A model generated the notes under the pieces. The model saw only the letters and a list, made by a program, of their open reading frames with translations. It was not told where the DNA came from and ran no database searches. Shown here one piece after another: positions 14,522 to 17,382 of a DNA stretch of 64,000 nucleotides (within the stretch, counting starts at the first letter, position 1; each line of letters opens with the position of its first letter). The translations under genes and the position numbers were made by a program. This DNA comes from Thiolapillus brandeum. GTDB taxonomy: Bacteria; Pseudomonadota; Gammaproteobacteria; Chromatiales; Chromatiaceae. The DNA lies in NCBI RefSeq assembly GCF_000828615.1, contig NZ_AP012273.1:372001-436000 (forward strand), written 5' to 3'.

Positions 14522-15115
14522 TCAGGGAGCTCGATATTCCTGTATCCGGTGATCGCAGACCCCCATTTCAGCAAGCTGTCGGGTGAGATCCTTCAGGTGA
14601 TCATCGGGAATACCGGGAAAGCAGGTAGTGCGGACCTGCAGGGGAGTCCCGGCCTCGACAAGGAATTCGAGGCTCTGCCAGGCCTGCTCGCCGGAACCGG
14701 CAATTCCAGTAATGGTGGCATAGTGGTTGGGTAGTTGCTTGATATCCAGCCCCACCCAGTTCAGCAGTGGGAGCAGCTTTTTGAGCCGCTGTGGGTAACA
14801 CCCGGCAGTGTGCAGCCCCACTTTGAAACCAAGATCCTTGACTGACGATATGGCCCTTTCCAGGGCAGCCTGTGCCAGTGGCTCTCCGCCACTGAACACC
14901 ACGGCATCGATATAGCCGCGACGCTGTTCAAGAGCTTCGAGTATCTTGCGCCAGTTCAACAGCTCGTGGCCGTTTGCAGGCAGCAGGTGCCTGTTGTGGC
15001 AATAGTGGCAGCGCCACGGGCATCCCTGACAGAAAACCACTGCTGCCAGCTCGCCAGGGTAGTCAATACTGGTAAAGGGAACGAAGCCCCCTACACGGAA
15101 GGAGGAATCCGGCAT
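14522..15115 (-). CDS. nrdG: NrdG, activase of anaerobic ribonucleotide reductase
   Basis: The 197-residue radical-SAM protein has the cluster motif CPWRCHYC (about residues 32-39) and the SAM-binding FSGGEPL. It makes the glycyl radical on class III ribonucleotide reductase using a 4Fe-4S cluster and S-adenosylmethionine. The start lies inside the end of the small glycyl-radical gene (25-bp overlap), so activase and radical domain should be made in coupled fashion. The fold and operon position fit NrdG rather than other activases. Confidence 0.92.
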   Translation of the reverse strand: MPDSSFRVGGFVPFTSIDYPGELAAVVFCQGCPWRCHYCHNRHLLPANGHELLNWRKILEALEQRRGYIDAVVFSGGEPLAQAALERAISSVKDLGFKVGLHTAGCYPQRLKKLLPLLNWVGLDIKQLPNHYATITGIAGSGEQAWQSLEFLVEAGTPLQVRTTCFPGIPDDHLKDLTRQLAEMGVCDHRIQEYRAP

Positions 15116-15258
15116 TCTTCGAAGTTCCTGCGCTCAGCGTACTCGGCCTGTTTGCCGGGGTTGAAGGATGTCACCGGCCGGTGATAACCCATGACCCGGG
15201 TCCATATCTCACAGGGTGTGCGTTCTTCGTCTTTCAGTTCGATGCTTTCATCGTGCAT
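15091..15258 (-). CDS. stand-alone glycyl-radical domain of class III ribonucleotide reductase (NrdD C-terminus)
   Basis: A 55-residue protein from the ATG at 15258, which has a GGAGA site 7 nt upstream. It contains RVMGYHRP, the glycyl-radical loop that normally ends NrdD, followed by FNPGKQAEYAERR, the usual last conserved block. The upstream nrdD ends in a TAA at 15361 after its zinc-binding segment and lacks this part. The two are in the same frame, separated by that one stop codon and 34 sense codons, and no other stop intervenes. Either a separate subunit is made, like a YfiD-type spare domain, or the stop is read through. It lies between nrdD and nrdG. Confidence 0.82.
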   Translation of the reverse strand: MHDESIELKDEERTPCEIWTRVMGYHRPVTSFNPGKQAEYAERRNFEECRIPPSV

Positions 15259-15360
15259 GATGTTTCTCCACTTTTCTCGATCCTGGTTCGTCTTGTCTAT
15301 CGGCAGCTTGGGCAAGGCGTAGCGTGCCCGGCAAGGGGGTTCGCAACTTCTTCCAATGGG

Positions 15361-17382
15361 TTATTGGCCTGCCTGCGCCTGTTTCTTCACCAGCAACTCC
15401 TCGTCGCAACGCGGACAAAATTCATGCTCACCTTCCAGGTAGCCGTGTTTCGGGCAGATTGAGAAGGTGGGCGTGATGGTGATATAGGGCAGGCGGAAGC
15501 TCTCCAGGGAACGCTTCACCAGACGTTGGCAGGCCTTGCTGTCGGAAAGCCGCTCGCTCATGTACAGGTGCAGTACGGTGCCCCCGGTGTACTTGCGCTG
15601 CAGTTCCTCCTGCATGGACAGGGCCTGGAAGGGATCGTCCGTGTAGCCCACGGGGAGCTGGGAGCTGTTGGTGTAATAGGGCTTTTCCGGCGTGCCCGCC
15701 TGGAGGATGTCCGGCCAACGTTTCCTGTCTTCCCTGGCGAATCGGTAGGTGGTACCTTCCGCCGGGGTGGCCTCCAGGTTGTACATGTTGCCCGTGGCTT
15801 CCTGGAATTCCACCATGCGGGCACGAATATGATCCAGCAGGCGTACCGCCAGGGCATGGCCTTCTTCCGTGGTGATGTCCTGCCGGTCGTTACTGAAATT
15901 GCGGATCATTTCGTTGATGCCGTTCACGCCGATGGTGGAGAAGTGGTTGCGCAGGGTGCCCAGGTAACGCTTGGTGTAGGGGAAGAGTCCCGCATCCATG
16001 TGGCGCTGGATGACCTTGCGCTTGATCTCCAGGCTGTTGCGCGCCAGGTCCAACAGAGTATCCAGGGCTTCCATCAGTCCCGGTTCGTTTTCCCGGTACA
16101 GGTACCCCAGGCGGGCGCAGTTGATGGTGACCACGCCGATGGAGCCGGTCTGCTCCGCAGAGCCGAACAGGCCGTTGCCCCGCTTGAGCAGCTCGCGCAG
16201 GTCCAGCTGCAGGCGGCAGCACATGGAGCGTACCATGTTGGGTTTGAGCTCGGAATTGAGGAAGTTCTGGAAATAGGGCAGGCCGTACTTGGCGGTCATG
16301 GCGAACAGGCGTTCGGCGTTTTCACTCTCCCAGGGGAAGTCCGGAGTCATGTTGTAGGTGGGAATGGGAAAAGTGAACACCCGCCCCTTGGCATCTCCTG
16401 CCGTCATCACCTCGATGTAGGCGCGGTTGATGAGGTCCATCTCCTGTTGCAGTTCGCCATAGGTGAAGGGCATTTCCTCGCCGCCGATCACGGGCACCTG
16501 GTCGCGCAGGTCTTCCGGGCAGACCCAGTCGAAGGTGAGATTGGTGAAAGGCGTCTGGGTGCCCCAGCGCGAGGGCACGTTCAGGTTATAGATGAGTTCC
16601 TGGATATACTGGCGCACTTCCCGGTAACCCAGTTTGTCCTTGCGCACAAAGGGGGCCATGTAGGTATCGAAGGAGCTGAAGGCCTGAGCGCCGGCCCACT
16701 CGTTCTGCAGAGTACCGAGGAAATTGACGATCTGTCCCACGGCGGAGGACATGTGTTTCGGCGGCCCTGCTTCCACCTTCCCAGGCACCCCGTTCAGCCC
16801 TTCGTGCAGCAGGCTGCGCAAGGACCAGCCGGCGCAGTAGCCGGCCAGCATGTCCAGGTCGTGGATGTGCAGATCCCCTTGCCGGTGGGCCTGGCCGATT
16901 TCCGGGGGATAGACATGGCTGAGCCAGTAGTTGGCGATGACCTTGCCGGAGGTGTTGAGAATCAACCCGCCGAGGGAATAGCCCTGGTTGGCATTGGCGG
17001 ATACCCGCCAGTCCGCGCGGTCCAGATATTCGTTCACGGAGCTGGCTACGTCCACCAGGGTCTGGCGGTCCTGGCGCAGGCGCTTGTGTTGTTCCCGGTA
17101 CACGATATAGGCCCGTGCCGTGGCGAAATGGTTGGCGGCAATGAGAGTCTGCTCCACGATATCCTGGATGCGCTCCACGTCCGGCATGTCGCCAGGCAGG
17201 TGGCTGATGACCTTCACCACCTGGGCCGTGAGCAGGCGGGCTTCCTCATCGCCGAACTCGCCGGTAGCGGCGCCGGCTCGTGCAATGGCCGACTGAATGC
17301 GCTGGCTGTCGAAGGGTGCGGTGGAGCCGTTACGCTTGCGCAGTTTCAGGGGTAGGGAGGTGATTTGTGGTAAAGCGATCAT
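15361..17382 (-). CDS. nrdD: NrdD, class III ribonucleotide reductase large part (lacks glycyl-radical domain)
   Basis: About 673 residues from the ATG at 17382; an in-frame start at 17433 overlaps the regulatory boxes. An N-terminal ATP-cone (LKLRKRNGSTAPFDSQRIQ) is followed by the ten-stranded barrel typical of NrdD (for example SSAVGQIVNFLGTLQNEW and GSIGVVTINCARLGYL). The C-terminus has the zinc-ribbon segment CPKHGYLEGEHEFCPRC and then stops at 15361, before the glycine loop. That loop is in the small gene at 15091. The enzyme reduces ribonucleoside triphosphates without oxygen. Paired NrdR boxes lie just upstream. Confidence 0.93.
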   Translation of the reverse strand: MIALPQITSLPLKLRKRNGSTAPFDSQRIQSAIARAGAATGEFGDEEARLLTAQVVKVISHLPGDMPDVERIQDIVEQTLIAANHFATARAYIVYREQHKRLRQDRQTLVDVASSVNEYLDRADWRVSANANQGYSLGGLILNTSGKVIANYWLSHVYPPEIGQAHRQGDLHIHDLDMLAGYCAGWSLRSLLHEGLNGVPGKVEAGPPKHMSSAVGQIVNFLGTLQNEWAGAQAFSSFDTYMAPFVRKDKLGYREVRQYIQELIYNLNVPSRWGTQTPFTNLTFDWVCPEDLRDQVPVIGGEEMPFTYGELQQEMDLINRAYIEVMTAGDAKGRVFTFPIPTYNMTPDFPWESENAERLFAMTAKYGLPYFQNFLNSELKPNMVRSMCCRLQLDLRELLKRGNGLFGSAEQTGSIGVVTINCARLGYLYRENEPGLMEALDTLLDLARNSLEIKRKVIQRHMDAGLFPYTKRYLGTLRNHFSTIGVNGINEMIRNFSNDRQDITTEEGHALAVRLLDHIRARMVEFQEATGNMYNLEATPAEGTTYRFAREDRKRWPDILQAGTPEKPYYTNSSQLPVGYTDDPFQALSMQEELQRKYTGGTVLHLYMSERLSDSKACQRLVKRSLESFRLPYITITPTFSICPKHGYLEGEHEFCPRCDEELLVKKQAQAGQ

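Follow-up and report, generated by a model that had tools for sequence, protein, structure and literature searches.

A class III ribonucleotide reductase encoded in two genes, with its glycyl-radical loop on a separate small protein

The locus analyzed here is nrdD of Thiolapillus brandeum, which encodes a class III ribonucleotide reductase (RNR) and lies in a stretch of 64,000 nucleotides (nt) of contig NZ_AP012273.1, positions 372,001 to 436,000 (hereafter the window). In the available extracts of three papers, PMC11226230 and PMC9669993 among them, the glycyl-radical domain is described as the C-terminus of NrdD. In the window the radical glycine loop is not on the NrdD chain; the stop codon precedes the loop, which is a separate open reading frame (ORF). 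The features of the locus, in window coordinates, are the following.

15361..17382, minus strand: nrdD, large subunit, 673 residues, without glycyl loop (PF13597 positions 2-529 of 562, E 2.7e-175)
17080..17343, minus strand: ATP-cone of NrdD, residues 14-101 (PF03477, E 2.3e-23)
16216..16221, minus strand: finger-loop Cys-Cys (MCCR), putative thiyl-radical cysteines (read from the sequence)
15406..15456, minus strand: zinc ribbon CPKHGYLEGEHEFCPRC, end of the large subunit (read from the sequence)
15361..15363, minus strand: TAA stop of nrdD, 14 codons past the zinc ribbon
15259..15360, minus strand: spacer of 102 nt, readable in frame with nrdD as 34 sense codons; not conserved (congeneric spacers differ)
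15265..15269, minus strand: GGAGA, ribosome-binding site of the small gene, 7-11 nt 5' of its ATG
15091..15258, minus strand: proposed small subunit, a free-standing glycyl-radical protein of 55 residues, MHDESIELKDEERTPCEIWTRVMGYHRPVTSFNPGKQAEYAERRNFEECRIPPSV (PF13597 positions 532-562 of 562, E 3.8e-8)
15187..15189, minus strand: Gly24 in RVMGYHRP, predicted radical glycine (alignment to the C-terminus of Pfam NRDD)
14522..15115, minus strand: nrdG activase, radical SAM protein of the NrdG2 type (TIGR02495, E 4.4e-57; PF04055, E 1.7e-21)

Between them the two products cover nearly all of the 562 positions of the Pfam NRDD model without overlap, and no third NRDD match at E <= 0.001 exists in the 3.15-Mb genome. 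The first-pass annotation of this DNA was right in placing the end of nrdD at a TAA after the zinc ribbon (the stop occupies 15363-15361) and in assigning the glycyl loop to a separate 55-residue gene with a ribosome-binding site of its own. The large product also covers positions 4-653 of the 684 of NF006126 at 1148 bits (cut-off 548), and models of class I and II RNR match it only up to about residue 150, the ATP-cone region. Both finger-loop cysteines, which we take from family knowledge to be the thiyl-radical cysteines, are invariant across 19 aligned NrdD. The zinc ribbon (CPKHGY..CPRC), a putative metal site whose cysteines are presumed, again from the family, to be the ligands, stands near the end of the large subunit and thus before the glycyl loop. 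The small protein is a glycyl loop without a catalytic barrel, as in YfiD/GrcA; together with five other small copies it matches only PF13597 above cut-off, and it also matches phrog_4132 (E 1.2e-7). Its gene is overlapped by nrdG over 25 nt. In the Prevotella copri structure, as far as the available part of the source describes it, the zinc site and the radical glycine belong to one C-terminal domain (PMC11226230); the break here therefore falls inside that domain, between its halves.

Conservation and history of the split

We compared 110 nrdD entries, namely the window and loci L003-L111, drawn from a survey of the order (L003-L031, besides the window's own L001) and from the 80 best relatives in GTDB genomes; some species, present in both collections, are counted twice. 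The gene is split in 105 entries and fused in two (L003, L097), and in the remaining three the contig ends 16-138 nt past nrdD. A strict script, based on the pattern C-x-[IVL]-[WYF]-x-R-[VI]-x-G-Y-x-R-P-x3-[FWY]-N-x-G-K, recognizes 104 of the split loci; a looser classifier agrees on these and adds L085.

The small gene has translation signals of its own. A set of 131 small genes remained after 13 duplicate loci had been dropped (species found in both collections were kept), and a Shine-Dalgarno-like motif lies 5' of 128 of them, starts having been picked by a combined Shine-Dalgarno and ATG score that favours such motifs. Conservation at the columns of the strict pattern is circular, and only unselected columns count as evidence; the unselected residues R-3, M7, E23 and R27 are identical in all 131 loci. 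The ratio of nonsynonymous to synonymous substitution (dN/dS) of the small gene is 0-0.22 in 11 hand-picked pairs. The small protein is under purifying selection.

The small-protein module also follows nrdD in its occurrence. In the order survey, nrdD is present in 92 of 119 genomes and the module (profile A1, E <= 1e-6) in 91, all of them among the 92; the sole nrdD genome without it is G072, whose contig ends about 200 nt past the nrdD match. Among these 91 genomes are G041, where the gene is fused, and G013; both give partial matches. Profile A1 found no module in the 27 genomes without nrdD.

Samples at higher rank, whose rows were read individually, contain both arrangements. An NRDD match occurs in 28 of 274 genomes of the class sample (20 split, 6 fused, 2 partial) and in 34 of 299 of the phylum sample (10 split, 24 one-frame, mostly of the E. 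coli type); in the latter, G587 was scored as split after its locus L166 had been read, and G670 is one-frame with an unclear loop. In L166, from a 0.9-Mb genome of the same phylum, the split is retained with a divergent loop, RSMGFIRPVS. Over 239 sequences, a set that includes duplicates and distant NrdD types, the looser script returned 147 split, 68 fused, 8 without a recognized loop and 16 without a usable NrdD.

Annotated split cases are the pHG1 plasmid of Cupriavidus necator H16, a plasmid of Bradyrhizobium diazoefficiens, Sulfuricystis and Sulfuricurvum (Campylobacterota). In C. necator, Sulfuricurvum and Sulfuricystis the small gene is labelled 'nrdD anaerobic ribonucleoside-triphosphate reductase'; databases thus see the small gene without describing a subunit. 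Three split genomes of the phylum sample (G279, G523, G673; 3.7-6.7 Mb) belong to one family, of which at least four other sampled genomes have no NRDD match; we suspect that the three are pseudomonads. The NrdD of P. aeruginosa (PA1920) is listed at 76 kDa in the available extract of a proteome paper, a size that would fit a large subunit without the loop.

The history of the split was read from trees that exclude NrdD rows with less than 40% identity to the window or fewer than 380 aligned residues. In a FastTree phylogeny of 148 NrdD, a clade of 138 contains 130 split, 5 fused and 3 unclassified proteins, and the five fused ones (L003, L097, L117, L172 from an Acidiphilium plasmid and L174 from an Actinomyces oris plasmid) are scattered within it; an IQ-TREE phylogeny of 55 rows agrees. 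A constraint that grouped all split rows except L215 to the exclusion of the fused rows was rejected by the approximately unbiased test (p 0.002, with long branches in the tree and a group chosen after the first tree had been seen). A single origin of the split without any re-fusion is rejected by the same test. One old split with later re-fusions is the simplest reading of these trees. Unbroken NrdD proteins in relatives, which the first-pass annotation had named as an argument against a genuine split, do exist, but at least three of the five look more like re-fusions than like signs of error. L003, L097 and L172 join the same two parts, and the linker of L003 retains a recognizable small-gene start (..IALKDEERTRCEVW). 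L174 and L117 branch off early and may instead represent an ancestral one-chain state. L215 (G913, of the phylum of L111) falls outside the main clade; its module match, about 140 nt behind nrdD, is weaker (E 1.6e-11) and was missed by the regular-expression patterns. A second origin of the split is possible there, if uncertain.

Some further observations concern individual nrdD loci. A metagenome-assembled genome of Geobacteraceae (L066/L291) carries a pair of glycyl modules separated by about 1.4 kb, in a 3.1-kb locus that also shows nrdG similarity. In G007, G010, G017, G022, G029, G048, G061, G081 and other relatives, NrdD has an in-frame interruption close to NRDD position 157; the resulting open frames of about 1000-1200 residues probably contain inteins. 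The one-chain NrdD of L209 and L210 have an extra C-terminal segment with RTCPNCK, looking by eye like a fused glutaredoxin-type domain. No FNR-type box within one mismatch was found near nrdD of the window, and the 7 matches in the whole window are about chance level (mean 6.2); upstream of nrdD in split relatives, an FNR/ANR-type box (at least 9 of 10 positions) occurs at 53 of 101 loci versus 3 of 101 in a control of one mononucleotide shuffle per locus.

A probable reductase of two polypeptides

The two-subunit form of class III RNR is real, old and widespread, and the two-gene arrangement is common in proteobacteria. We consider it very probable that these genes encode an enzyme made of two polypeptides, whose radical subunit acts in trans. 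The first-pass annotation had offered this as one of two readings, and it is now strongly supported by the 105 split entries, the separate start and ribosome-binding site, and purifying selection on the small protein; the co-occurrence with nrdD and the fused forms nested among split ones point the same way. The radical site, its docking, its activation by NrdG and its exchange after oxygen damage are our inferences.

In this enzyme family NrdG makes a 5'-deoxyadenosyl radical, which takes hydrogen from the glycine; the glycyl loop inserts into the barrel and oxidizes a finger-loop cysteine, and oxygen cleaves the chain at the glycine. In the arrangement proposed here, the zinc ribbon, the ATP-cone and the catalytic barrel that holds the finger-loop cysteines would stay on the large NrdD, and the radical glycine loop and the C-terminal tail would reside on a second protein of about 50-65 residues, translated on its own. 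NrdG, encoded by the overlapping gene, would install the radical on the small subunit, either on the small protein alone or on the complex. The RVMGY loop would then enter the NrdD barrel in trans and oxidize the finger-loop cysteine. Oxygen would destroy only a cheap and replaceable 55-mer instead of a 75-kDa chain. In favour of this enzyme also counts C. necator H16, which has this split arrangement and whose NrdDG is reported to be essential for complete denitrification (PMC2864759).

Two considerations weigh against this picture. The first is structural: in an AlphaFold model of the natural fusion L097, built on a 19-row alignment with a mean predicted local distance difference test score (pLDDT) of 69, the glycyl segment (residues 660-700) has a pLDDT below 50 and permits no inference on docking. 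A PDB search with the small protein returned only weak matches, to designed proteins. The second concerns the radical site: work on C. necator in 1999 reportedly assigned the radical to Gly650 of the large chain, and if oxygen cleavage at Gly650 was really shown, the site proposed here is in doubt. Residue 650 of C. necator NrdD (L112, pHG1) falls within the zinc ribbon, at the first glycine of CPTHGYLAG, a motif that resembles CGYLG of E. coli-type NrdD; this position may explain the older assignment. A possible old MISASSIGNMENT is suggested: if Gly650 was indeed named, the radical site is to be re-examined on the 66-residue neighbour of C. necator NrdD.

The same residue is what favours an alternative to the two-polypeptide enzyme, in which the small protein would be an accessory and the radical would sit on the zinc-ribbon glycine of the large subunit (HGYL being similar to the CGYL of NrdD of the E. 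coli type). One-chain L116, L117 and L172, however, have both an HGYL/HGYI ribbon and an RVVGY/RVMGY loop, so HGYL is no substitute for the loop; the invariance of the four unselected residues of the small protein also argues against it, and we regard this alternative as very unlikely.

Stop-codon readthrough, the other reading of the first-pass annotation, would have the TAA sometimes decoded to give an ordinary one-chain NrdD. Its attraction is that in the window the two frames coincide, with a single stop between them and 34 sense codons, exactly as had been noted; this is a coincidence, shared by no more than 22 of the 104 split loci, the window among them. The small gene is in the nrdD frame in 25 of these loci and in another frame in 79, and the stop codon is TGA in 72, TAA in 19 and TAG in 13. 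Of the 131 small genes, 26 are in frame 0 with respect to nrdD, 58 in frame 1 and 47 in frame 2; the small gene overlaps the end of nrdD in 41, follows within 0-60 nt in 62 and lies farther away in 28, over a range of -32 to 425 nt. Even within the genus there is variation, with spacers of 79, 115 and 425 nt and frames 1, 1 and 2 at three loci. Since frame and spacing vary freely, readthrough is rejected as highly improbable.

A one-chain nrdD broken by sequencing error at the TAA or by recent pseudogene formation, suggested by the single chain that Pfam NRDD models and by the 68 fused loci among 239 (mostly more distant NrdD types), is refuted by the conservation of the split (105 of 110 entries, module in 91 of the 92 nrdD genomes of the order) and by the selection on the module, and its probability is negligible.

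Glycyl-radical modules away from nrdD and on phages

Ten of the 91 module genomes (G010, G012, G016, G024, G046, G048, G081, G103, G107, G117) carry extra modules apart from nrdD, on other contigs or far away on the same contig; some of these matches are interrupted by stop codons and may be degraded copies. We read 13 extra-copy loci (L284-L290, L292-L296 and L113 from pALVIN01 of Allochromatium vinosum), leaving out L291, a second module in the Geobacteraceae operon that has NrdG. No similarity to NrdD or NrdG appears at any of the 13 in the 1.8-7.1 kb examined. The module of L290 lies between genes for a major head protein and an endolysin, and that of L289 is identical to the module of virus contig L348, where terminase and portal genes adjoin. 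In G012 and G081 such prophage-type copies coexist with the host nrdD and its adjacent module.

A scan of IMG/VR with profile A1 gave 299 pattern matches, of which 276 were confirmed by tblastn and the best 80 examined (L297-L376); the other 196 may include one-chain NrdD. The pattern finds a module ORF in 79 of these best 80 (the exception is L376), with a median of 60 residues; the script found no start codon in three of the 79, one of them at a contig edge, and a Shine-Dalgarno-like motif lies 5' of 58 of 78. Among the best 80 loci only one, L303, has NrdD similarity and none has NrdG similarity. Whole virus records, mostly longer, were searched for 42 of the 80: 41 have the module without nrdD, and G932 (L303) also has a split nrdD; none of these records is rated at least 90% complete, so they may be fragments and the absence of nrdD is unproven. 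The NrdD of phage L303 has an in-frame insert directly after the finger-loop MC. The neighbours of the modules are phage genes, for example tape measure (L300, L333), DNA polymerase and clamp loader (L306), endolysin (L373), integrase (L305), and tail assembly chaperone with HNH endonuclease (L324). The search of 50,697 GenBank phage records for cultured phages recognized no free module: the first search gave three weak matches (one annotated RNR, two in unannotated records), and at E up to 10 there were 30 weak matches, the 20 listed being 18 RNR, one capsid and one hypothetical protein.

The viral module corresponds to phrog_4132, listed in PHROGs as 'unknown function'; the profile of this family also matches host modules, and it gives matches in 13 of 185 genomes of the class and in none of 14 controls. 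The mean pS of 27 disjoint viral pairs, a few of them near-duplicates, is 0.49 and the mean pN 0.106. Over 37 residues, viral modules are 73-97% identical to the best host module, and the closest relative of the 79 is viral in 46 cases, host in 15 and tied in 18. Some free modules (L289, L290, L292, L293, L319, L334, L348, L351, L362, L369, L375) have a multi-cysteine N-terminal segment (e.g. CAHCPPTLAEHGRCQIGRLVPHDCAGC), present in 9 of the 79 viral ones, which is perhaps a substitute metal site.

Extra and phage-borne copies look like spare parts. We think it fairly likely that phages, prophages and plasmids carry autonomous RNR glycyl-radical proteins (phrog_4132) that plug into the split NrdD of the host, starting or restoring deoxyribonucleoside triphosphate (dNTP) synthesis in anaerobic hosts or in hosts that encounter oxygen; a phage would then bring only the consumable part of the reductase. 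Phages gain from dNTP supply. Alternatively, the phage copies may be decoys that disarm the host reductase, given that a detachable subunit could be out-competed and that no phage locus of the 80 has NrdG, although spare parts need none if the host supplies it. The presumed radical loop is, however, retained in 79 of 79 phage copies (a feature largely selected by the pattern), residues R-8, E-4 and R22, outside the search patterns, are identical in all 79, and in the available part of the source T4 Y06I is a validated spare part for pyruvate formate-lyase (PFL) (PMC8683613). Decoys seem unlikely, and spare parts remain our preferred reading.

The phage-borne module is the most surprising part of the finding. 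Andorfer et al. (2021), in the available extracts, regard only YfiD and Y06I as validated and raise the possibility of spare parts for glycyl-radical enzymes of other kinds (PMC8683613); the phage module, with many virus sequences, is a concrete candidate for such a part in an enzyme other than PFL. It also hints at what a phage family without assigned function may do, and at an auxiliary metabolic gene reduced to about 50 codons. For the host enzyme, a detachable radical subunit would make radical loading, docking, exchange and repair addressable by mixing two proteins, and annotation should take into account that, in this group, the radical site escapes a search made only with the large NrdD. 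We found no report of a conserved bacterial NrdD split or of phage-borne NrdD glycyl modules in open-licence full texts, subscription papers and preprints being outside the search.

Comparison with known systems

With the one-chain class III RNR (NrdD of E. coli, T4, Prevotella copri and Thermotoga maritima) the enzyme described here shares the barrel, the finger-loop cysteines, the zinc ribbon, the ATP-cone where present, the glycyl loop and the NrdG activase; it differs in the break between zinc ribbon and radical loop, the loop being a gene product of its own. The five class III sequences returned by a PDB search are, we assume, all one-chain enzymes.

Two other kinds of divided RNR are known. 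In the split class II enzyme NrdJa/NrdJb the C-terminal part is likewise a second polypeptide (PMC9669993), but its chemistry is that of class II (adenosylcobalamin), whereas the full-length match here is to class III. Phage nrdD also occurs in pieces, fragmented by homing endonucleases and inteins (PMC3653736). Most of those breaks are tied to introns, inteins or homing endonucleases (PMC3653736), unlike the present one, which is at a single site, is conserved from class to class and leaves the small protein complete.

A further likeness is to YfiD/GrcA of E. coli and Y06I of T4, small free-standing glycyl-radical proteins that complete a barrel enzyme in trans, as the available extracts describe them (PMC8683613). 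The likeness to YfiD drawn in the first-pass annotation holds in part: YfiD backs up an enzyme with a glycine of its own, whereas the small protein of the host is no spare but the sole loop found, and a spare role may fit the extra and phage copies. Moreover, the small protein belongs to the NRDD family and not to the PFL-type glycyl-radical domain of YfiD. T4 Y06I, for its part, parallels the phage copies found here.

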